A stretch of DNA of 64,000 nt from Candidatus Sulfurimonas baltica (lineage in GTDB: Bacteria; Campylobacterota; Campylobacteria; Campylobacterales; Sulfurimonadaceae): contig NZ_CP054492.1 in NCBI RefSeq assembly GCF_015265455.1, positions 2,108,001 through 2,172,000 on the forward strand, in the 5' to 3' direction. Below are positions 34,917-58,050 of the stretch, piece after piece. The notes under the pieces are model-generated. The model did not search any database, was not told where the DNA came from, and saw only the letters and a program-made list of their open reading frames with translations. A program made the translations under genes and the position numbers. Numbering within the stretch: the first letter of the stretch is position 1; every line of letters starts with the position of its first letter.

Positions 34917-35777
34917 TCATTTATTTAGTAGATTTTTGTTTATTAACTTCATTAACTGAAGAGGGTCAACTTGTTCACCTCCAACTCTAAAACTAAAGTG
35001 AAGATGGGGACCTGTTACTCTTCCGCTATCTCCGGACAAGCCTAAAAGCTCACCTCTTTTAACTATTGTACCCTTTTGAACATCAAGCTTGCTCATGTGG
35101 TAATAACAAGAGTATACCCCTTGTCCGTGATCCACTATAACCGAGCCTCCCGAATAAAATCTGTCTGTGGCCAAAACAACCAACCCATCATTACATGCAA
35201 TTAAAGGAGTCCCTACTTTAGCCCTGAAATCTGTTCCGCTATGATAACCTTTTAGCGAATCATTATAAACTCTTGCTTTTCCAAATTCACTTGTTATTTT
35301 TGTATTTAGTGGTAATATAAAACTTTGTGATATATAACTTTTTTCATTCGTAGTTTTATATATTTGCATAGCCTCTGCATACTCTTTTGAAGCTCTTTTA
35401 CTGTCTTCTTTGCTAAGGGTAACTTTTGAGCCATCTACTTTTATTTTTTCTTTTTTATACTTTGCATCTTCAATCTTGAAAAACAGAGTTTTAGTTTTTT
35501 GCTTTTTTGCTTCTTTATAAAAAAGCTCTACTTTTTTTTTACTTGGCTTTTCATAGTAACTAATAGGAAGCAAAACGTAAGACATTTCACTATTAATCGG
35601 GTTATCAAATATTTTATATGTTTTTTTATCCACAACTATTTTTTCGTAGCTGATATTTTTCTCTTTTTTAAACTCTAAGAGTGCTGTTTTCCCGTTAGCA
35701 ATAGTGCTATTTGAGATATCAATATTTAAAGCAAAAACGCTACATGTAAGAAAAAGCAGAAAAAAAGATAGCCTCAT
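34917..35777 (-). CDS. M23-family peptidoglycan endopeptidase
   Basis: 286 residues with a signal peptide (RLSFFLLFLTCSVFA). The C-terminal LytM domain (about 170-280) has the zinc ligands in GYHSGTDFRA (H-x3-D) and GPHLHFSF (H-x-H) and the usual YYHMSKL. Cuts peptide cross-links in the periplasm; relatives in Helicobacter and Campylobacter help set cell shape. It overlaps smpB by one base and follows it in the operon. Confidence 0.92.
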   Translation of the reverse strand: MRLSFFLLFLTCSVFALNIDISNSTIANGKTALLEFKKEKNISYEKIVVDKKTYKIFDNPINSEMSYVLLPISYYEKPSKKKVELFYKEAKKQKTKTLFFKIEDAKYKKEKIKVDGSKVTLSKEDSKRASKEYAEAMQIYKTTNEKSYISQSFILPLNTKITSEFGKARVYNDSLKGYHSGTDFRAKVGTPLIACNDGLVVLATDRFYSGGSVIVDHGQGVYSCYYHMSKLDVQKGTIVKRGELLGLSGDSGRVTGPHLHFSFRVGGEQVDPLQLMKLINKNLLNK

Positions 35778-36229
35778 TATAAATCTTTCATCGCTCTGTC
35801 AATATCCCGCTTCATATCTTTTTCTTTAAGATCATGTCTTTTATCGTGAAGCTGTTTTCCTTTTGCAATTGCAATCTGAATCTTCACGATATTTCTAGCA
35901 TTAAAGTATAACTGCAAAGGGACAATGGTATATCCATCTCTCTCAACTGCTTTTATCAGCTTCACTATCTCTTTTTTATGAAGAAGAAGTTTTCTGCTTC
36001 CTCTCTCTTCGTGTGAATAGAAGTGGTGAGTGGTCTCTAGTCTTCCTATGTGCGCATTAAATAAAAATGCTTCGCCATGTACAAAACGGATAAAACTGTC
36101 TTTTATATTTACTCGGCTTGCCCGTACACCTTTCACTTCGCTTCCGGCAAGAACCATTCCGGCTTCAAATTTTTCTTCTATATAGTAATCAAAATAGGCT
36201 TTTTTATTTTTTGCTATTGTTTCGCCCAT
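35777..36229 (-). CDS. smpB: SsrA-binding protein SmpB
   Basis: Binds tmRNA for ribosome rescue. 150 residues: [41 protein letters not shown] start region, [29 protein letters not shown]-terminal tail. In related genomes it follows csrA-ispE; here the accessory island separates it from ispE and it has its own -10 box. tmRNA itself was not found in the window. Confidence 0.97.
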
Positions 36230-36258
36230 TGTTTGATTTTCCTTATTTTATTTTTTGT

Positions 36259-36264
36259 ATTATA
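36259..36264 (-). promoter_or_regulatory. Putative -10 box for smpB
   Basis: TATAAT on the minus strand (ACAGCTATAATACAAAA), 30 nt before the smpB ATG. It would give smpB transcription independent of the island. Confidence 0.5.
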
Positions 36265-36282
36265 GCTGTATTTCATTTATGA

Positions 36283-36288
36283 TATGAT
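36283..36288 (+). promoter_or_regulatory. Possible -10 box reading into the structured RNA region
   Basis: TATGAT in ATGATATGATTATACG with T-rich DNA upstream; it would start a plus-strand RNA near 36295. On the opposite strand a TATAAT at 36292-36287 points towards smpB, so the direction is not settled. Confidence 0.3.
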
Positions 36289-36294
36289 TATACG

Positions 36295-36480
36295 AAAGGT
36301 TCCTAGCTACTGACAAGACTCCAAGGGAGGCTTCTTCGGATAGGTAATTGGGTCATTTTCATAAATTACTTTAACCTTATAATAAAGTTTTAAAAGTAAT
36401 TACAATACAATTACACCGCTCAGATACCATTGAGTATCCAGAGGTAGCCGCTACTCGCTCGGTTGATAATAAGCGACCAT
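36295..36480. ncRNA. Candidate structured RNA beside the DUF3800 operon
   Basis: About 186 bp with no convincing ORF. Possible stems read on the plus strand: AATTACTTT/AAAGTAATT (9 bp, at about 36364-36400), CTC-GATAC/GTATC-GAG around 36419-36442, TCGCT/AGCGA near 36454-36475, CTCC/GGGAG near 36320-36330, and a long-range GCTAC (36306-36310) with GTAGC (36445-36449). The region follows the partner gene and the DUF3800 gene. I recall that several comparative-genomics RNA motifs (DUF3800 motifs) occur next to such genes; membership here is inferred, not shown. The strand is uncertain. Confidence 0.45.
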
Positions 36481-36482
36481 CT

Positions 36483-37037
36483 TTAAAACCACTCACAGCC
36501 AATCAATTTTACATCTTTTTTTGAGTTATAATTCTTATATCGTTTTTGATACTCTTGCCTTTTTCCCTCTCTGTCAACATAGAAACTTGTGACTAAATAG
36601 GAGCTACTTTTACCTAACTTCTGCAGAATTACCACAAAATCATAATCTTTCAGCCACAAATATAATCTAATATCTTTTGTTACATTTGTTTCTTGATGAT
36701 AAAACATTTTGACTTCATCAATTGCATGATTTTCAATTATCTTTTTTATCCAAACCAATCTCTCAGACCTGCGATAATCGGGCAGTCTCTCTTTCTCTAC
36801 AATCCATCTGTTGCCAACTTTTTTCTGTATTTTAGTTTCTCGTGTTGTGAGATGCCAAAATACTAATTCTTTGCCATCATCTTTTTGATTTGATTTTGGA
36901 TTTATATAAATATTGCTATTGAGGTAAGTTTTCTTATCTACAAAATTTTCACAAAAATAGTCATACAAAACATCAAAAAGTTCCGTGATTTCTATGGTGT
37001 CTAAGTCTATAATTTCACTAAACACTACAGACTCCAT
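36483..37037 (-). CDS. Unrecognised protein coupled to the DUF3800 gene
   Basis: 184 residues. Visible features are a central FWHLTTRETKIQ, then RLPDYRRSERLVWIKKIIE, a Trp/Leu-rich IRLYLWLKDYDFVVIL and the C-terminal SYLVTSFYVDREGKRQEYQKRY. This pattern (FWHL...R.P..RR.ER..W...LWL...D.VV.L...Y.V..FY) looks like a recurrent bacterial and phage family, possibly nuclease-like, but I cannot name it. Its start overlaps the DUF3800 stop by 13 bp, so the two are translationally coupled. Confidence 0.7.
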   Translation of the reverse strand: MESVVFSEIIDLDTIEITELFDVLYDYFCENFVDKKTYLNSNIYINPKSNQKDDGKELVFWHLTTRETKIQKKVGNRWIVEKERLPDYRRSERLVWIKKIIENHAIDEVKMFYHQETNVTKDIRLYLWLKDYDFVVILQKLGKSSSYLVTSFYVDREGKRQEYQKRYKNYNSKKDVKLIGCEWF

Positions 37038-37696
37038 CTAAAAATATTAAACTTTTCTATCCAAGGTTTAGTGCCTATGATTTCATATCCGCAATTTAGC
37101 TCTATCTGCTCTATGATATATTTTTTTATCTCACTTTTTTTCTCTATATCTTTTCTATTTTTATACCCGATAGCACCTATAAAAAGGTCACAAAGCTGAA
37201 TAATATTGGACTCAAAAGAGTGAATAATATAAAAATCTATTTCGCTCAATCTATCATTTTTGAGAACCCTCTCAAGCTCTTTTACTTTCTCTCTGCCTTT
37301 GGTGTCTTTATAGTCCAAATATATTTTATATTGGCTGTCTCTATACAAAAAGTTTCTCAAAGTGTAAAAATAAACTACATAGTAAAAATCATCATGCGTT
37401 CTATTGTACTGCTCATGCTTTTGGTCGGATTTGTTTACGACAAGAGTCGCTTTAAACTTCATAAACTCACTGCTAAAAAAATACTCTATCAACTCTTTAT
37501 AAAATTCTTGCTGTTTGTTTATGAGTTTTGTCCATTTTATCTCATTATGATAGTTATGTTTATGTCGTAAAAATTTTATATATTTGTTGGCTTCTACAAC
37601 TTTTTCTTCATCTATCAAAATAGCACCGTTTACCATGATATTTGAGCTGTCGTTCAGTAAATGGTTGCTTTCATCGCAGAATATTTTATAGTTCAT
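37025..37696 (-). CDS. DUF3800-family protein
   Basis: 223 residues. Matches the DUF3800 pattern: N-terminal IFCDESNH (Asp8, Glu9), an EIKW motif (about 52-55), an acidic strand (IYLDYKD, Asp128) and the late QLCDLFIGAIGY (Asp170). This acidic set resembles an RNase H-like metal site, so a nuclease is plausible but unproven. It lies in the smpB-ispE island beside a coupled partner gene and a candidate structured RNA. Confidence 0.8.
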   Translation of the reverse strand: MNYKIFCDESNHLLNDSSNIMVNGAILIDEEKVVEANKYIKFLRHKHNYHNEIKWTKLINKQQEFYKELIEYFFSSEFMKFKATLVVNKSDQKHEQYNRTHDDFYYVVYFYTLRNFLYRDSQYKIYLDYKDTKGREKVKELERVLKNDRLSEIDFYIIHSFESNIIQLCDLFIGAIGYKNRKDIEKKSEIKKYIIEQIELNCGYEIIGTKPWIEKFNIFRWSL

Positions 37697-37762
37697 TGGT
37701 TAGCCTTTATTTTCTTGTATTTTTTCTAACGGACATTAAGAATTGACGTAATATCTCAAATT

Positions 37763-38731
37763 TCATTCCTCTATTTTTTGAAATTTCAATGTATAATTTT
37801 TTTTATTTAACCTAGTGTTATATCTTTCAAAATAACCTGTTTGCTTTGGATATAAATACTCGTTATTCCTAATTTCTTTACTAGATTTTATTCCATAAGT
37901 TAAAGAGCATATAGAACTAGAATCTATTTTAAATAGATACAAAATTTCAGGGTTATTTTTTGCTAAATTTGCTAGTGAATTTCCCCATACACTTCTATCC
38001 TCTTCACTTTCAATATCTTCTAAAAATATATGAAGTTTTGTACATTTATCACCATTCTCTTTTTTACAACTTTCAAATTCAATTTTAGGGTTTTCCGATA
38101 TGTCATTATTTAACATATTATCAATAAATTTTATATCCTTATACTTATCAAAATCATCCAATATCACTTTATCAGCTTGAGAAAGTTTTAAAATAATTCT
38201 ATGCTCTTTTTCATATATCCATTCATCACTTTTTTGAAGAAATATTTCAAATAATAATCTATCTTCACCTTCAACAGAAATATTACTATAGTCTCTATCA
38301 AACATATCAATTTTATACATTTGTTGTTTTCTATATATTATTGCATGACATTTGCCATCATAATAATCAAAAGGTTTATCAAGAGCTGTTTCTGTAAATC
38401 TAAATAATTTCTTAAAAAAAACTGTATAGCCTGTATAAAAAGAAAATCCTATTAATGCACCTTTATGTTCGTTTGCATAATGTGCCCACATTAATAAATC
38501 ATCCTTAGCCTCTGTAAAACTGATAACACAAACTTTATGTTTATTCTCTTCAATATACTTTAGAAGCTCTTTGTCATCTAACTCACAATTAAATTCTTTT
38601 GTTAATTTTTTTAATGCTTTTTTAGAATAAGTTGCTTCAAATGGATCGTTTAAAGCACTTAATTGAGTAGCACGAATATAACCATCATTCAAAATAAAAT
38701 TTGGATTACTCACATATTTATACAAATGCAT
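37763..38731 (-). CDS. DUF2971-family protein
   Basis: 322 residues. The N-terminus has the DUF2971 hallmarks: LYKYVSNPNFIL, the segment ATQLSALNDPFEA, and VCVISFTEAKDDLLMWAHYANEHKG. Members are common in accessory and defence-type regions; the function is unknown. It is 18 bp downstream of the MmeI-like gene, so the two may be cotranscribed. Confidence 0.8.
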   Translation of the reverse strand: MHLYKYVSNPNFILNDGYIRATQLSALNDPFEATYSKKALKKLTKEFNCELDDKELLKYIEENKHKVCVISFTEAKDDLLMWAHYANEHKGALIGFSFYTGYTVFFKKLFRFTETALDKPFDYYDGKCHAIIYRKQQMYKIDMFDRDYSNISVEGEDRLLFEIFLQKSDEWIYEKEHRIILKLSQADKVILDDFDKYKDIKFIDNMLNNDISENPKIEFESCKKENGDKCTKLHIFLEDIESEEDRSVWGNSLANLAKNNPEILYLFKIDSSSICSLTYGIKSSKEIRNNEYLYPKQTGYFERYNTRLNKKNYTLKFQKIEE

Positions 38732-38749
38732 TATATTTTCAACCCTCCA

Positions 38750-41455
38750 TCAATTACTTTCACCCAAATACTCCTCATACAACTCAAACAAAAACTCAAT
38801 TCTCTCTTTGTCATTTTTGAAAATTTTATTTGTGTAGCATTTGTCTACTGCTTTGTCTAACTCTTGGTGGGCTTTTTTTAGTTTTGGTGGCATGGCTAGT
38901 GGGTCGTAGAGGTCGGCTAGTGAGCTGTCTTTGAAACTCTCTCGAACCTCTAAAACTTTTTGTGCTTTTTCTTCTACATGTAGTCTATTTTTTTCGCTTA
39001 CATTTTTTGGGAATGGGTAGTTGTTGTAAACTAGCTCATTTGAATATCTGTAATCACTTTTAATTCTTCCAGCCGTATATTTGACCCAGGTCATGTGCAT
39101 CAGCGATGTTAAAATTCCAAAATGTGACAAAGAATTTATTGGAATTGTACTTGTTGAATTATTTGCTATATACTTTTCATTAAAAAATCCCATTGGTATA
39201 TATATTCTATTTTCTGATGAATGTAATGGAATCAATACAAAATTACTTTTTGACTGTCTGTTCTCTCCAAAAAGAGTCGGATACTCTGCTAGTTTTTTGG
39301 TAGCTTCTCTCGTACTTTCTTCTCTTAGTTTTTTTACATTTTCTATGCGTTGCTTAACCTGTGGCATTGATTTTAAATCATTTGGTTCTAAATCTTCAAG
39401 CCACAAACACCATCTATTTTTACCGTTTAAAAATTCACTTGCACTTAGTAATGGTTTTATATATTTTTCAGCCATTGGCTCTTGTAGTAAAAGTTCTGCT
39501 TTATCTTCATCGGTAAGTAAAAAGTTTCCGCCGTCATTTGGCATACTACCAAAAGATATATTTGGAACATCGCAAATTGGTTTTCTTCTTTTCTCAATTA
39601 CAAAATCATCGCCTTCAACCAAATAAGGATTGATATTTTTTACACTCTTAGCATGTGGTTCTGCTTTAATATCTTCATATTCAAAGATAGTTTTGTTGTC
39701 GCTGTCAAAATTTGCAAATCCGATTATCACTACATGTACAGCTGCGTTTGCTTTTGCTTCGTTGCTCCAGTTAAAAGTTTGATGTGCAAAGTGGATTTTT
39801 ATTTTATAGTTATCAAACAGTTCTTTCCAAAGTATGCCGACCTGTTCGCCCTGAGCGATGGAGTTTGTGGAGACAAAGGCAACTTTTATGTTTGTATTTT
39901 GAATGTAGCGTGCGGCTTTGAGATACCAAGCCGTAACATAGTCTAAAACTCCTGCACCCTGAACTTTGCCAAAGATTTTTTTCATATCTTCTTTTTGTTC
40001 TTTGCCTTGCAATTGCTTGCCTATAAACGGCGGATTTCCAAGAATAAAAGAGAGTTTATCTTTTGCTATCACATCTTCCCACTCTACATGTAAAGAATTT
40101 CCATGCACGATATTTGCCGATTTTTTGAGCGGAAGTCTTGCGAAATATTGTCCGAAATACTCACTTATCATCATGTTCATTTGATGGTCGATGAGCCACA
40201 TGGCAACTCTGGCTATCTGTGCGGCAAACTCTTCGTACTCTATGCCGTGAAACTGGTCAACGTCACACCAAACTATGGCTTCAATATCCAAAACACTCTC
40301 TACATGTAAGAGTTTTAAAATTTCAAATTCGAGTTTGCGTAACTCCCTGTATGAGAGAATAAGAAAGTTTCCGCTTCCACATGCAGGGTCTAAAAAGTGG
40401 AGTGTTGAGAGTTCTTTGTGAAACTCTTGGAGCTTCGTTTTGTTTTTCTTTACTTTTTCAAATTTTTCATAAAGTTCATCTAAAAAGAGAGGTTTTATGA
40501 GCTTTAAGATGTTGCCCTCACTTGTGTAGTGCGCACCTAGATTTCGTCTGTGGGCTTTGTCCATGATGGACTGAAAAAGTGAGCCAAAAATCGCAGGGCT
40601 TATCAGTGCCCAGTCAAGATAACAGCACTCCAAAAGTGCTTCTCGCATTTTAGTATCGAACGAAACTATCGGCAAAAACTCTTCAAAAAGCCTTCCGTTT
40701 ACATAAGGAAATGCGTTTACACTCTCATCAAGATTTTTGAGTCTTTTTTCTTGCGGTGTGTTTAACACTTGATAAAGTTCGGCTAGTTTACTCCCGACAT
40801 CACTTCCATCTTCATGTGTTTTATTTTCAAGAAACTCCGTAAAAAGTCTTTTTTCAAAAATGGCTGTATCTTCTGCAAAAAGTAAAAACAGAAGCCTTAC
40901 TAAAAAATGCTCTAGCGGATGCCCGTCATAACCTGTCTCTTTGAGCGCATCATGAAGTTTTCCCATAAGCAGGGCGGCTTTGATGTTGATGGGGTCTTCT
41001 GCAACAACTTTATGTTTTGTGTAGCCTGCTATAAAACCAAAAAGATTGACATTTTTGTAGAGTTCGTTTATGTTAAATTCGTGCGTGGTGTTCTCTTCTA
41101 AGTCATAAAGTCTAAAGATTTCAAAATCGGAGATGAGAATGTATTTTGGAAGTTCGGCTTCTTTTAAGCCGGGGAAATAATCAAGTGCCTGAGTGTAGGC
41201 TTTGTCTAAATCTTTGCCTTTTGATTTGTGTTCGACGAGCAAAACACCTTTCCAAAAAAGGTCAATCCGCCCCCGTTTTTCACCGAGCTTTTTAACAGGC
41301 TCTTCAAAGGACGCTACACGTTTACGACTAATGCCGAAAATATTGAAAAATTCATTCCAAAAGCTTTGCGATTCTGCATGTTCTCTTGCTTCACTTTCCC
41401 ACTCTTTGGAAAAGTTTATCGCTCTGTTTTTTATCTCGTTCCAGCTTAGTGCCAT
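38750..41455 (-). CDS. MmeI-like type IIG restriction-methylation enzyme
   Basis: 901 residues, one polypeptide with cutting and methylating parts. An N-terminal PD-(D/E)xK nuclease (about 50-110) shows Asp65 in RIDLFW and Glu75-x-Lys77 in VEHKSKG. A helical linker leads to an N6-adenine methyltransferase with SAM motif FLDPACGSGNFLI (about 355) and catalytic LGNPPFIGKQ (about 480). The C-terminal third should be the target-recognition domain. MmeI itself is about 920 residues. The recognition sequence cannot be read from this. It is the first gene of the island. Confidence 0.85.
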   Translation of the reverse strand: MALSWNEIKNRAINFSKEWESEAREHAESQSFWNEFFNIFGISRKRVASFEEPVKKLGEKRGRIDLFWKGVLLVEHKSKGKDLDKAYTQALDYFPGLKEAELPKYILISDFEIFRLYDLEENTTHEFNINELYKNVNLFGFIAGYTKHKVVAEDPINIKAALLMGKLHDALKETGYDGHPLEHFLVRLLFLLFAEDTAIFEKRLFTEFLENKTHEDGSDVGSKLAELYQVLNTPQEKRLKNLDESVNAFPYVNGRLFEEFLPIVSFDTKMREALLECCYLDWALISPAIFGSLFQSIMDKAHRRNLGAHYTSEGNILKLIKPLFLDELYEKFEKVKKNKTKLQEFHKELSTLHFLDPACGSGNFLILSYRELRKLEFEILKLLHVESVLDIEAIVWCDVDQFHGIEYEEFAAQIARVAMWLIDHQMNMMISEYFGQYFARLPLKKSANIVHGNSLHVEWEDVIAKDKLSFILGNPPFIGKQLQGKEQKEDMKKIFGKVQGAGVLDYVTAWYLKAARYIQNTNIKVAFVSTNSIAQGEQVGILWKELFDNYKIKIHFAHQTFNWSNEAKANAAVHVVIIGFANFDSDNKTIFEYEDIKAEPHAKSVKNINPYLVEGDDFVIEKRRKPICDVPNISFGSMPNDGGNFLLTDEDKAELLLQEPMAEKYIKPLLSASEFLNGKNRWCLWLEDLEPNDLKSMPQVKQRIENVKKLREESTREATKKLAEYPTLFGENRQSKSNFVLIPLHSSENRIYIPMGFFNEKYIANNSTSTIPINSLSHFGILTSLMHMTWVKYTAGRIKSDYRYSNELVYNNYPFPKNVSEKNRLHVEEKAQKVLEVRESFKDSSLADLYDPLAMPPKLKKAHQELDKAVDKCYTNKIFKNDKERIEFLFELYEEYLGESN

Positions 41456-41514
41456 TTAGTTTGATTTCCTTGCCTCAGTTTTATAACACTAAATCATCAC
41501 CAAATCTAGTTCAC

Positions 41515-42291
41515 TCATTTAATTCTAAAAAAACTGCTTCCGCTTCCGCTGAAATAATATCCGTGTTTATAATGATTTTTCAACTCTCTATACTCTTGAA
41601 GTGCTGGTTTGAACAGATCGTTTGCTTCATCAATGCTCATTTTATTGAGTATTTCAGAGGATGTTGTTGTTTTCAACTCGTTCATTTTAAATCCATCTAT
41701 TGGATCATAAAAGTTTTCTCTATAAACGGCATAAACTTTTGGCGTACTTATCTCCACTTTTGGTGTAAAAACCTCAAACTCTAAAAGAGGTTCTTTAAAC
41801 TCCTCAACAACTTCACCTATTCCGCCAACATTTGCACTGTCAAATCCATAAACAAAAAACGGAACGTCAGCTCCTACTTTTAGACCTACTGTTGCTAGTT
41901 CATTTTGAGAAAGTCCTAAGTGTAAAACTTCATTGCACATTTTCAAAAATGTAGCCGCATCACTGCTTCCGCCGCCAAGCCCCGCAAATGCTGGGATATT
42001 TTTCTTTACATGTACAGCATATTTTTGCATTAAACTTTGTAATGAGACAGCCAATGGCTCGCTCAAGAAGTCTAAAAGAGATAAATATGCTTTATATATT
42101 GTGTTTTGCTCTGTGGTGCATGAAAAATCACCTATGATTTTAAACTCGTCACTCTCTTTGAATACAAAAGAGAGTTCGTCGTACAAAGAGTCTACTCTCA
42201 TAAATCTGGAAATTATCTCATGATAATTAGCTCTCATGCCTGTTATTTTTAAAAAGATATTTACTTTTGCATAAGCTTTGTAAATCTTCAT
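41515..42291 (-). CDS. ispE: 4-diphosphocytidyl-2-C-methyl-D-erythritol kinase
   Basis: GHMP kinase of the MEP isoprenoid pathway. 258 residues, slightly short as in related epsilonproteobacteria. AYAKVNIFLKITG start, the phosphate-binding loop PAFAGLGGGSSDAATFL, and YYFSGSGSSFF near the C-terminus. It follows csrA by 10 bp. Confidence 0.95.
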   Translation of the reverse strand: MKIYKAYAKVNIFLKITGMRANYHEIISRFMRVDSLYDELSFVFKESDEFKIIGDFSCTTEQNTIYKAYLSLLDFLSEPLAVSLQSLMQKYAVHVKKNIPAFAGLGGGSSDAATFLKMCNEVLHLGLSQNELATVGLKVGADVPFFVYGFDSANVGGIGEVVEEFKEPLLEFEVFTPKVEISTPKVYAVYRENFYDPIDGFKMNELKTTTSSEILNKMSIDEANDLFKPALQEYRELKNHYKHGYYFSGSGSSFFRIK

Positions 42292-51072: not shown

Positions 51073-53238
51073 TTACGCACGGCCTAAAGAAATTTTATTC
51101 CCTTTAAATTCCAATATCTCTACTGTGATTTTTTCACCTTCACTTAAGACATCTGATACTTTTTCTACTCTTTGATCTGATACTTTTGAAATATGTAAAA
51201 GTCCGTCAGTTCCATCTGGGAGCTCTATAAATGCACCAAAATCAACTATTTTTTTTACAATTCCCTCGTATTTTTCACCAACTTCATATTTGACTTTCTC
51301 AACCTTAGGTGCATTCACTATCCCATTTATATGATCTCTAGCTCCAGCAACACCTATTTTATTTTTTCCTGTAATCTTAACTTTTCCATCTTTTTTATCT
51401 ATATCAATTGCTACTTCAAACTTCTCTATCATTTCACGAATAGTTTTACCTGCTTGACCAATAATCTCTCCTATAAAGCTAGGGTCTATATGAAAAAAGT
51501 CCGTACTTGGAAGAACACCATCATTAAACTCGATTTTATCTTCAGCTTCAATCATTATGTCTATAATATGAGCTCTTCCCTCTTTCGCTTGAAAAAGTGC
51601 TTCTTTTAAAACATCTAAACTAATTCCGCCGAGTTTAATATCCATCTGCATCGCAGTGATTCCATCTTTTGAACCAGTAACTTTAAAGTCCATATCACCA
51701 TCATGATCTTCTAAACCCATTATATCTGAGAGAATAGCATATTTGTCACCTTGGGAAACCATACCCATAGCAATTCCGGCTACTACTTCACTAGTCTCTA
51801 TATCAGCAGCACGCAATGCCAGATAACCACCACAAACTGTCGCCATTGAAGAAGAACCATTTGACTCGAGTACTTCTGAGACTAAACGAACTGTTTGTCC
51901 ATCAAGATTTACGATAGGTTCAAGTGCTCTTTTAGCTAAATTTCCATGTCCTAGTTCTCTTCTTTTTGTTCCCATAATAGGAGATGCCTCACCAACGCTA
52001 AAACCAGGAAAATTATAGTGAACCATAAAGTTTTCATTTTGAGTTCCCTCATCTGTCAGAGCCTCAAACATTTGTGCATCTTTAGGTCCACCCATTGTAA
52101 GAACTACTAATGTTTGTGTCTGACCACGTGTGAATAGGCATGATGAGTGAGCAGAAGGGAGTATGTTTGTGCTAATTGATATAGGTCTAACTTCAGTTAA
52201 AGCTCTTCCGTCTGCACGAACTCTCTCGTTTAAAATCTGAGCTCTAACTTGCTCTTTTTTTACTTTTTCTATTGCATCTTTTAGCTGTACTTCTTCCCAC
52301 TCAATATTATTTTTTATTATTCTTTTTCTAAGTTGTCTCAGAGCAGTTGAGCGTTCTGATTTTGCCATTTGGTTCATCGCGTCTTTTATATCTGACAAGT
52401 GATTGTCTCTTACAAATGAAACCATCTCTTCATTTATTACATGTGCTTTATATTCAATAGCTAAAGTCTCTTTTTTAAAGGCTCTAAAAGAGTTTTCAAA
52501 CTTGGCATTATTCTCAAAAAGAAGTTTTTGTGTTTGCTCAAACACCTTAATAAGTTCATCTTCACTTATTGCATTTGAAGTATGAGTTGATAAAATAGGA
52601 GCGCTCATTGTTGGGTCCATAAGCGGGTCAACAATTAAAGTGTTATCAAACTTTTCAGAGCCTATTGTTCTCATCTCAATCATAAGAATATCATCTTTTG
52701 TCCCGGATAGGTAAAGGTCTAGTGTAGAATTTCTAAGCTGTTGAAGAGTTGGATTTAGAACTATTTTTCCATCAATTTTAGCAGCACGAACTGCTGATAC
52801 TGAAGTGTTTATATCTATATCACTTACATAAAGTGCAGCTGAGGCAGCATTAAGTGCAAGGGCTTGCAAATCAGACTCTTTGTCAACACTGAACACTAAG
52901 ATAGTTATCTGCGTAGGATGTCCGAAGCCTTTTGGAAATAGTGGGCGAAGAGAGCGATCAACTATACGAGAAGTGAGTGTTTCAAAATCACTTGGCTTAG
53001 TCTCACGTTTAAAAAATCCACCTGGAATTTTGCCGGCAGCATATGTTTTTTCAATATACTGAACAGTTAATGGTAAAAAATCATCCTTAACTATCTCTGT
53101 CTCATCAATCACAACAGTAGCAAGTATTACACTATTACCACTCTTCAACCATGCAGAACCATTTGCCTGCTTGGCTATATCACTAAAATTGTACTCTTGC
53201 TCTGTATTTAAAAGCTCTACGTTAACATCATATTTCAT
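51073..53238 (-). CDS. pnp: Polyribonucleotide nucleotidyltransferase
   Basis: 721 residues, phosphorolytic 3'-5' exoribonuclease. Two RNase PH-like cores (about 10-215 and 325-550), with a FTRGQTQTL motif and DIMGLEDHDGDMDFKV, then KH (about 570-625, DPSFIGEIIGQAGKTIREMI) and S1 (about 640-710, GIVKKIVDFGAFIELPDGTDGLLH) domains. Its start overlaps the PRTase-like gene by 11 bp. Confidence 0.97.
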   Translation of the reverse strand: MKYDVNVELLNTEQEYNFSDIAKQANGSAWLKSGNSVILATVVIDETEIVKDDFLPLTVQYIEKTYAAGKIPGGFFKRETKPSDFETLTSRIVDRSLRPLFPKGFGHPTQITILVFSVDKESDLQALALNAASAALYVSDIDINTSVSAVRAAKIDGKIVLNPTLQQLRNSTLDLYLSGTKDDILMIEMRTIGSEKFDNTLIVDPLMDPTMSAPILSTHTSNAISEDELIKVFEQTQKLLFENNAKFENSFRAFKKETLAIEYKAHVINEEMVSFVRDNHLSDIKDAMNQMAKSERSTALRQLRKRIIKNNIEWEEVQLKDAIEKVKKEQVRAQILNERVRADGRALTEVRPISISTNILPSAHSSCLFTRGQTQTLVVLTMGGPKDAQMFEALTDEGTQNENFMVHYNFPGFSVGEASPIMGTKRRELGHGNLAKRALEPIVNLDGQTVRLVSEVLESNGSSSMATVCGGYLALRAADIETSEVVAGIAMGMVSQGDKYAILSDIMGLEDHDGDMDFKVTGSKDGITAMQMDIKLGGISLDVLKEALFQAKEGRAHIIDIMIEAEDKIEFNDGVLPSTDFFHIDPSFIGEIIGQAGKTIREMIEKFEVAIDIDKKDGKVKITGKNKIGVAGARDHINGIVNAPKVEKVKYEVGEKYEGIVKKIVDFGAFIELPDGTDGLLHISKVSDQRVEKVSDVLSEGEKITVEILEFKGNKISLGRA

Positions 53239-57854: not shown

Positions 57855-58050
57855 GCCCGAGTAGCCGTCTCGCATTTGGCTTGGTTCTAAAAGCCGAATT
57901 TGGGCGAAGAGAGAACTCTTTAAAGGCGGCATTATCTCGACAGAGTTAACGTATCTCAAACGATAGCACCGACACATAAGAAAAACTACCTGTTCGCGGT
58001 TTGAATATGTAGAACCCTCATTATTACGATATGTCGAACTACCCAGACTA
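57855..58050 (-). ncRNA. ssrS: 6S-like regulatory RNA
   Basis: About 195 nt in the 313-bp gap between a histidine-kinase gene and purD. A strong -10 box (TATAAT, 58058-58063) is 7 nt before the 5' end. The two ends, GTCTGGGTAGTT and GGCTACTCGGGC, pair over 12 positions with wobbles, and the length fits 6S RNA, which mimics an open promoter to hold RNA polymerase. I recall 6S RNA upstream of purD in other epsilonproteobacteria. Without an alignment to known 6S the identity remains likely rather than certain. Confidence 0.6.

Follow-up and report, generated by a model that had tools for sequence, protein, structure and literature searches.

A DUF3800 gene pair with a convergent RNA: a candidate defence unit in Candidatus Sulfurimonas baltica and phage P1

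Does the non-coding DNA behind a DUF3800 gene and its partner in Candidatus Sulfurimonas baltica belong with these genes, and what might the three do together? We followed this question in a stretch of 64,000 nt (contig NZ_CP054492.1, positions 2,108,001 to 2,172,000; here called the window, from genome G000). A sequence-only reading had described there a DUF3800 gene, an unnamed gene overlapping it by 13 bp and, directly behind the latter, about 190 bp of apparently non-coding, strongly stem-forming DNA, together forming a possible toxin-antitoxin (TA), phage-defence or small mobile unit. Judged by comparison of homologous loci, the DUF3800 gene, the partner and a structured RNA are one conserved unit, and the TA or phage-defence proposal gains ground from co-conservation, covariation, a PADLOC match and a location near restriction-modification (RM) genes. 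Whether the unit acts as a suicide or guard nuclease with an RNA antitoxin we judge evenly balanced. The gene call (Pfam PF12686, E 8e-10), the 13-bp overlap and the non-coding DNA directly behind the partner all held, while the RNA had to be redrawn: it lies on the plus strand, opposite to the genes, and the region is a composite of RNA-A (36419-36484) and a second RNA, RNA-B (36295-36358), which the proposed long-range GCTAC/GTAGC pairing would wrongly join. The parts of the unit are:

37025-37696, minus strand: DUF3800 protein (RlfA-like, PDC-M04A), 223 amino acids, predicted RNase H-fold nuclease (Pfam, PADLOC, similarity to P1 RlfA, AlphaFold/Foldseek)
36483-37037, minus strand: partner protein (RlfB-like, PDC-M04B), 184 amino acids, possibly a BECR-fold (RelE/colicin D-like) RNase (PADLOC, phrog_16230; fold weak)
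36419-36484, plus strand: RNA-A, predicted 5' hairpin and H-type pseudoknot, convergent to the gene pair (covariance model R1, covariation)
36406-36411, plus strand: predicted -10 box TACAAT, 7 nt ahead of RNA-A (fixed-spacing test)

RNA-A and its gene pair

Of 228 genomes of the family, 12, counting that of the window, contain a homologue of the partner, and in the species collection DUF3800 relatives occupy 12 distinct loci. Even where the identity of the partners falls to 28-45%, a conserved motif is present immediately behind them. On the strand opposite to the genes this motif starts with CUCA or CUUG and its 3' end coincides with the stop codon of the partner; the predicted RNA-A is read from the plus strand and runs towards the genes. 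Ahead of its start, at a distance of 7 nt, is a -10-like hexamer with a mean of 4.6 out of 6 matches at 15 loci; the highest mean among 5000 shuffles was 3.93, and among 5000 rotations 3.73. When this was rechecked at nine later loci outside the first set, eight carried 5-6 of 6 matches at a distance of 7-8 nt. The nulls for the -10, joint promoter, pseudoknot and hairpin-pattern tests were mononucleotide shuffles, to which only the first -10 test added rotations. In locus L126, where the DUF3800 gene is broken, the hairpin is kept and the -10 box has only 2 of 6 matches; four extra hairpin-pattern matches elsewhere in that locus are possibly repeated copies of the RNA.

The predicted fold of RNA-A consists of a hairpin closed by CUC/GAG (CUUG/CAAG in the long forms) and a following H-type pseudoknot. 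We drew it manually from the strand opposite to the genes and then assessed it by pair counts, not R-scape, in the same sequences from which it was derived; RNAalifold, run on our first, gene-strand MAFFT alignment, gave 4 pairs only. In eight short forms 93.7% of the cells are paired (28-42% when slid by 1-3 columns) and 7 of 18 pairs show compensatory changes; in none of 500 shuffles was the share of paired cells, the count of compensated pairs or the covariation score as high. With 16 sequences 94.1% of the cells are paired and 7 of 13 pairs compensated, values reached by 0 of 500 shuffles for paired cells and covariation score and by 15 of 500 for compensated pairs; since the compared sequences are related, the cell counts are not independent events. 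Further pair types did not rise above the shuffles (393/500 for the short forms, 201/500 for the 16 sequences). When the pseudoknot was scored in each sequence separately, between 0 and 5 shuffles in 200 matched the score in 14 of the 16; the other two, L119 and L120 (26 and 10 of 200), are not individually significant. Folding of the single region is unremarkable (z -0.83 on the minus strand, -0.04 on the plus strand), so that the description as strongly stem-forming fails for this sequence alone; the structure emerges by comparison. Covariation, by pair counts, and conservation next to homologous gene pairs were both found.

At RNA-A and RNA-B no Rfam family matched at its gathering score, nor any up to E 10 in the window, and the suggested Rfam DUF3800 motif was likewise missing from both; the sole match in 36230-36500 was RNase_P (E 1.8, far below the cut-off). 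The RNAs of 14 other RNA-bearing loci (17 loci scanned) gave no Rfam match at E up to 1 or 2. A search of 6 genomes with DUF3800-I returned nothing, and was uninformative as its controls returned nothing either. One sub-threshold DUF3800-I match was seen in L078 (3789-3926; E 1.8, at 29.5 bits against a cut-off of 44.2); the RlfB-linked RNA of that contig lies about 240 nt away.

How closely RNA and genes go together can be counted from either side. Searched against 397 genomes of the class, R1 gave nine strong matches (E < 1e-6). Four were training sequences (G000, G150, G056 and G458, the last being L021), among them the window match at 36418-36484 on the plus strand; three more (G537, G468, G535) are convergent beside both genes, and two (L039, L041) are lone. 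Eleven weaker matches (E 0.005-0.05) had no DUF3800 gene or partner in their flanks and were treated as chance. A DUF3800 protein search of 387 class genomes matched in 19, and the RNA was present at 17 of the 17 loci with both genes. Six of these were known; the other eleven include L118, identical with the known G468 locus, which leaves 10 new ones, and L114, L116 and L117 look near-identical. At the eleven loci the RNA was found by the hairpin pattern in nine, against a background of 5 other matches in 80,406 strand-bases (4 of them in L126) and 30 matches in 3300 shuffled regions, and by R1 in L122 and L123 (31.6 bits, E 7e-6). Across 36 local sources R1 matched in 26 at E < 1e-6, or 21 places after removal of duplicates: 16 training sequences, L040, L043, L044 and the two lone RNAs.

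DUF3800 genes without a detected RlfB (L124, L125, L059, L084) had no RNA of the RNA-A type in the scans made; L124 and L125 encode a more distant DUF3800 protein without detectable partner. L024 gave no R1 match and, like L080, was otherwise inspected on the gene strand only. No RNA was seen in L015, where the partner frame breaks off near the contig end, or in L025, where a DUF3800 remnant of 23 amino acids lies near an MmeI gene. Behind the distant single DUF3800 genes of a Mannheimia phage (L059, 3790-3970) and a Salmonella plasmid (L084, 3280-3570) we observed, on the opposite strand, promoter-like DNA with a GC-hairpin; a convergent RNA may, by these two cases, be general for DUF3800.

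A convergent transcript might also act in cis, regulating or terminating the rlfAB mRNA without a role in trans. Its position and its 3' end at the rlfB stop codon would suit such a role, as would the terminator-like stem with a T run in phage P1, Bifidobacterium phage Bbif-1, L076 and L078. However, the compensated 5' hairpin and the promoter exceed the needs of a terminator, the overlap with the coding part is minimal, and RNAs persist without neighbouring genes; we regard a purely cis-acting element as improbable.

The two proteins and their restriction neighbours

The DUF3800 protein matches the PADLOC model PDC-M04A over residues 1-222 of 223 (E 5e-75) and the partner matches PDC-M04B over residues 7-184 (E 1e-63); RlfA and RlfB of phage P1 match the same two models. 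P1 RlfA and the former protein have 38% identity over 98%, and the latter shares PADLOC and PHROG families with P1 RlfB, with 10 of 10 scanned partner homologues matching phrog_16230, a phage 'replication protein' family. Residues D8, E9, E52, D128 and D170 of the DUF3800 protein are invariant in 12 sequences and would be its catalytic residues. Its AlphaFold model (predicted local distance difference test score, pLDDT, 85.5) has RNase HII as top Foldseek match (E 4.6e-6), and every one of the 18 PDB chains at E <= 0.001 is an RNase HII/H2 entry. By its model the protein thus has an RNase H fold, and a nuclease is predicted, in agreement with two published studies (PMC10910872, PMC12669027).

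The partner gave a weak model, with a pLDDT of 73 for the best of five and about 50 for the others, and neither Foldseek nor VIA returned a confident structural match. The best Foldseek E value is 0.21, and RelE ranks 7. Among the VIA matches listed with at least 70 aligned residues, six of nine are RelE, HigB, BrnT, colicin D or toxin-complex entries (one HigB1 appears twice; Z at most 4.3) and the remaining three are N-acetyltransferases. RelE, HigB, BrnT and colicin D presumably share the BECR fold; the partner is possibly a BECR-fold RNase, which we treat as a lead only. In Pfam and PADLOC no family match to PrrC or RloC was seen for either protein.

Two further genes of the island are relevant here:

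38750-41455, minus strand: MmeI-type (type IIL/IIG) RM enzyme, same island (Pfam MmeI domains; PADLOC REase_MTase_IIG)
37763-38731, minus strand: DUF2971 protein (PDC-S31), adjoining defence candidate outside the conserved unit (Pfam DUF2971; PADLOC PDC-S31, E 7.6e-21)

On the minus strand the order is ispE (named from its sequence, which L020 and L031 match), the MmeI-type enzyme, the DUF2971 protein, DUF3800, the partner, the RNA region and smpB; the RNA region occurs once in the genome. The DUF2971/PDC-S31 gene sits between the restriction enzyme and the DUF3800 pair. An MmeI gene is also close to the unit or a remnant of it in L014, L020, L025 and L039. Going by nearest genes and Pfam, an RM gene adjoins the unit in 17 of 22 loci; adding the window, L014 and L020, where MmeI is close but not always the next gene, RM genes are near in 20 of 25. 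In four loci the unit lies between RM genes (hsdS and hsdR in L005, a methylase and Res in L009, a methylase and hsdS in L114 and L119). No restriction gene was found at L006, L016, L019, L044 and L115, and several loci were testable on one side only. Distant from this locus, the window holds a known purD RNA motif (57855-57989; Rfam RF01069, 83.3 bits).

Phage P1 and RNAs without genes

The gene order rlfA-rlfB of phage P1 is that of the window pair. On the strand opposite rlfB, TTGAAA-N17-TAGATT-N7-CUCAUCUACCAUGUGUAGAAAGAG precedes a strong stem and a T run, which predicts a small RNA starting near 52975 (minus strand) of NC_005856, where the record annotates none. In L072, with a 71% identical RlfB and different upstream DNA, the RNA is preserved, its -10-like box is spaced as in P1, and a change in the 3' stem is compensated (by eye). 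Positions 1-101 of this contig piece, which carries the divergent P1-like rlfB, hold the end of a transfer-messenger RNA gene (Rfam), which suggests integration at ssrA.

The hairpin also occurs behind rlfB-like genes of a Rhizobium plasmid, a Methylobacterium plasmid and phage Bbif-1, as well as in the IMG/VR contigs L076, L078 and L079 and in Bacteroides/Phocaeicola plasmids; the unit is often carried by phages and plasmids. Upstream of the Bacteroides/Phocaeicola hairpin the element reads TACCTTTG, which we take to fit the Bacteroidetes -7 consensus TAnnTTTG. An RlfB-like gene before the RNA was found by search in P1, Rhizobium, Methylobacterium, L072, L076, L078 and L079, weakly in Bbif-1 (E 6e-3), and by position only in L082 and L083. 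L076-L079 were assigned by RlfB alone, and L060 (no different from L082 near the RNA) and L077 (an apparent repeat of L076) were not counted apart. In Bbif-1, the DNA behind the RlfA gene (L057, 3697-4212) apparently codes for an RlfB-like protein missing from the annotation; the tblastn match spans 35830-36111 of the record (E 6e-3), with no feature annotated there.

Across phyla, 18 hairpins (two of them lone copies from E. coli, see below) have 92.4% of their cells paired, slid versions reaching up to 62.9%, and 5 of 8 pairs show compensatory changes (0/500 shuffles). A joint -35/-10 test at nine loci outside the Campylobacterota set gave 73 of 108 matches, with a maximum of 65 in 4000 shuffles; this set includes L019, a contig labelled Flavobacteriales, and L078 and L079 contribute little to it. 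R1 gave no convincing match on the phage loci (best 8.6 bits). The phage RNAs were found by eye and by a pattern written after seeing them, and have only the 5' hairpin in common.

The P1 genes bring up the thought that the unit serves phage or plasmid replication and was later captured by restriction islands. The name rlf presumably stands for replication lytic function, and the P1 record puts rlfAB next to repL, under a C1 operator, with the remark 'possibly associated with lytic replication'. That remark is a guess, however, and the match to a PADLOC defence candidate and the chromosomal copies beside restriction genes point elsewhere. Moreover, rlfA and rlfB of P1 were scored non-essential by CRISPR interference (CRISPRi) in one study (PMC10695390). 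We hold a replication role to be very improbable.

Several RNAs stand alone. Among 5426 E. coli genomes, rlfA DNA was found in 122 records and rlfB also in 122 (118 covering at least 80%), whereas the P1 RNA with its promoter was found in 169, of which 122 cover at least 80% of the query; records were counted separately for each query. Of the 169, 47 fall in the band of 80-90% identity, and the nine of these that were listed are chromosomal, with matches to the RNA body only. In four of the 47 that were read (L085-L088), tblastn detected no RlfA or RlfB in the 3-kb flanks; these RNAs keep the hairpin and most of the 3' stem, and a phage head gene is annotated near L088. One lone copy, used as query, matched 8 phage records, namely P1 and its relatives, and 101 plasmid records, a number near that for rlfB (103). 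In the class, L039 holds a lone RNA-A and a lone RNA-B behind an MmeI gene, and L041 an RNA-A with TATAAT 7 nt ahead (by eye), behind an open reading frame of 341 amino acids which we take to resemble the DUF1016 family.

RNA-B provides another example of an RNA without its gene:

36295-36358, plus strand: RNA-B, most likely the leftover RNA of a separate single-gene DUF3800 system whose gene is lost here (model R2, homologous loci, covariation)
36283-36288, plus strand: -10-like TATGAT ahead of RNA-B (by eye)

For the DNA at 36285-36365 there are strong matches at a distance from partner genes, and these lie immediately behind genes of another DUF3800 family. This family, DUF3800-B (DUF3800 by Pfam), is a single gene of about 327-329 amino acids in G048, G056 and G093, with RNA-B behind it. 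The stems of RNA-B have 95.4% of their cells paired (0/500 shuffles for paired cells and covariation score), but only 3 of 19 pairs are compensated, a number which 19 of 500 shuffles reach. TATAAT-like boxes lie ahead on the same strand in G048, G093, G152 and G180 (by eye). Model R2, which counts the window among its own sequences (E 9.3e-21 there), matched in 22 of 397 genomes. At 20 fetched loci a DUF3800-B match of more than 200 amino acids was found in nine, one of 26 amino acids in one, and none in 10, in a check of 1.5-kb flanks with one query protein by which divergent genes could be missed. In G150 the fragment IKEYIIDEGIVTKDMENK, resembling the DUF3800-B C-terminus, precedes RNA-B; in the window RNA-B alone remains. 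Since RNA-B lies behind DUF3800-B elsewhere and such a fragment is left in G150, the most likely reading of 36295-36358 is a scar left by a second unit that was lost. The 19-codon reading frame noticed earlier in the region (MKMTQLPIRR...) lies on RNA-B and was rejected: RNA-B homologues differ from that of the window by 4, 6, 7, 8 or 12 nt in one hairpin, out of frame, and the reading frame is therefore not conserved.

Of 18 downstream stretches, only those of the window (L002) and the G150 record (L003, the same as L014) have RNA-A succeeded by RNA-B; L039 contains both as well, in a different order. In L034 and L100 RNA-B lies directly behind what we take to be the ends of hsdS and hsdR, respectively. 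A DUF3800-B gene matching in two frames lies between ispE and smpB in L031, and an ispE end precedes MmeI in L020, which suggests repeated use of this site. The ispE-smpB interval of the window (35777-42291), with its MmeI and DUF2971 genes and traces of two DUF3800 units, resembles an insertion hotspot, of which the broken DUF3800-B with RNA-B in L031 and the ispE end in L020 are signs at other loci.

RNA also serves as scaffold or cofactor, as in RNase P and CRISPR effectors, and our main alternative is that the RlfA nuclease depends on RNA-A in this way and owes a fixed specificity to it. The lone RNAs of prophages would then be decoys; they are compatible with this idea, as decoys would work against a cofactor-dependent nuclease too. 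The co-occurrence of RNA and proteins, the predicted RNase H-fold nuclease and the DUF3800 proteins that, in two studies, accompany some Cas12a2, VI-F and V-A2 loci (PMC10910872, PMC12669027) speak in its favour. On the other hand, a hypervariable guide-like segment was not found (the ten P1-like RNAs compared, all close relatives, differ from that of P1 by 0 or 1 base over 66 nt), the RNA is bounded by promoter and gene, and RNAs are kept without the proteins. We consider a cofactor role unlikely, though less so than the other alternatives.

A possible guard function and its setting

The antitoxin model starts from what the compared sequences display: a gene pair, a convergent RNA, a covarying hairpin and pseudoknot, promoter-like boxes, nearness to RM genes and RNAs without genes. 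An RNA of about 60-100 nt would be transcribed on the opposite strand from a promoter of its own and would stop where it meets the second gene. Made constantly, it would bind RlfA (RNase H-fold), RlfB (a possible BECR-fold RNase) or both, and keep the protein silent. If the RNA were lost or titrated, for example when a phage stops transcription or disarms the neighbouring restriction enzyme, the freed nuclease would stop the cell, as abortive infection or as guard of the restriction system. We favour this model because the RNA is present at every examined intact two-gene locus and repeatedly kept where the genes are gone (L039, L041, the E. coli chromosomes, and RNA-B in 10 of 20 loci); loss of the genes before the RNA is the order expected for an antitoxin. 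It is also favoured because the lone E. coli chromosomal copies resemble the pseudo-ToxI of phage PhiTE, an RNA which neutralises ToxIN (PMC3475682). The position beside restriction genes is reminiscent of PrrC, for which silencing by the linked restriction enzyme and activation by a phage anti-restriction factor are described (PMC2610378). Pressed further, the unit would be a new class, a two-protein suicide nuclease held by a promoter-driven RNA and placed as a tripwire beside or inside restriction operons against anti-restriction phages, which the lone RNAs of prophages disarm and of which P1 has a complete copy; this extended version we put forward tentatively, as somewhat less likely than not.

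Several points weigh against the antitoxin model. We infer transcription, binding, toxicity, silencing and trigger from sequence. The lone RNAs could equally be decoys against an RNA-dependent nuclease or slowly decaying scars, and those of E. coli have no obvious -10 box at the usual distance (by eye). R1 scores L114, L115, L119, L120 and L121 poorly (best 13.9 bits, E 0.11, in L115; no match at the expected place in L121), so what is common is the hairpin and, less surely, the pseudoknot plan; outside the training groups these two, and not the whole sequence, are shared. The pairing counts come from related, non-independent sequences, and no background control accompanies the count of nearby restriction genes (20 of 25). 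For a BECR fold of RlfB the matches are weak, with Z at most 4.3. Finally, the P1 pair follows a C1-controlled operator and may hence be a lytic-phase gene rather than a guard, and from the CRISPRi result no addiction is visible for P1 rlfA and rlfB in that assay.

As a protein pair the unit is already known as a defence candidate: PDC-M04 and the rlfA-rlfB (rapA-rapB) genes of P1 and P7 have the same two protein models in the same gene order. PADLOC-DB holds protein models only for PDC-M04, so the RNA is no part of that candidate, and its name was not found in the openly licensed literature searched. Structured RNAs beside DUF3800 genes are also known as a kind: a 2017 survey reportedly described such motifs, and the Rfam DUF3800-I and other DUF3800 motifs likewise lie beside a DUF3800 gene, but their covariance models do not match RNA-A or RNA-B. 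Type I TA systems pair a small hydrophobic toxin peptide with an antisense RNA; the proteins here have 223 and 184 amino acids and other family matches. In ToxIN, a type III TA system, the antitoxin RNA consists of tandem repeats that lie upstream within the toxin operon, whereas the unit here has two proteins and a single RNA copy, driven by a predicted promoter of its own, on the opposite strand and downstream. Neither does an OMEGA-like arrangement fit, as the RNA body is conserved throughout among the close relatives compared, with no hypervariable guide beside a conserved scaffold. If the antitoxin model holds, the unit would share with ToxIN the combination of an RNA pseudoknot with a toxic nuclease, and also the lone copies of the RNA that phages carry (PMC3475682). 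PrrC and RloC are likewise nuclease genes beside or between restriction genes (for PrrC, PMC2610378), but these are linked to type I enzymes, while the RlfAB unit has an RNA and is also found beside type IIL and type III enzymes. Rfam lists DUF3800-I and -IX (PMC11701678).

In the openly licensed literature we found no earlier description of RNA-A, and among the literature titles listed nothing relevant on small RNAs of P1. As far as these searches show, the RNA-A family, the convergent promoter-driven layout, its presence in P1, the RNA-B family and the lone copies are new. Two P1 genes that had no explanation, and a candidate for a defence system, thereby gain an RNA component with a predicted position, strand and promoter. 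That two DUF3800 families have the same layout, with a convergent RNA directly behind the gene, may help to explain the recurrent RNAs beside DUF3800 genes, and the lone RNAs on E. coli chromosomes, at least one of them near phage genes, point to an arms race at the level of RNA.

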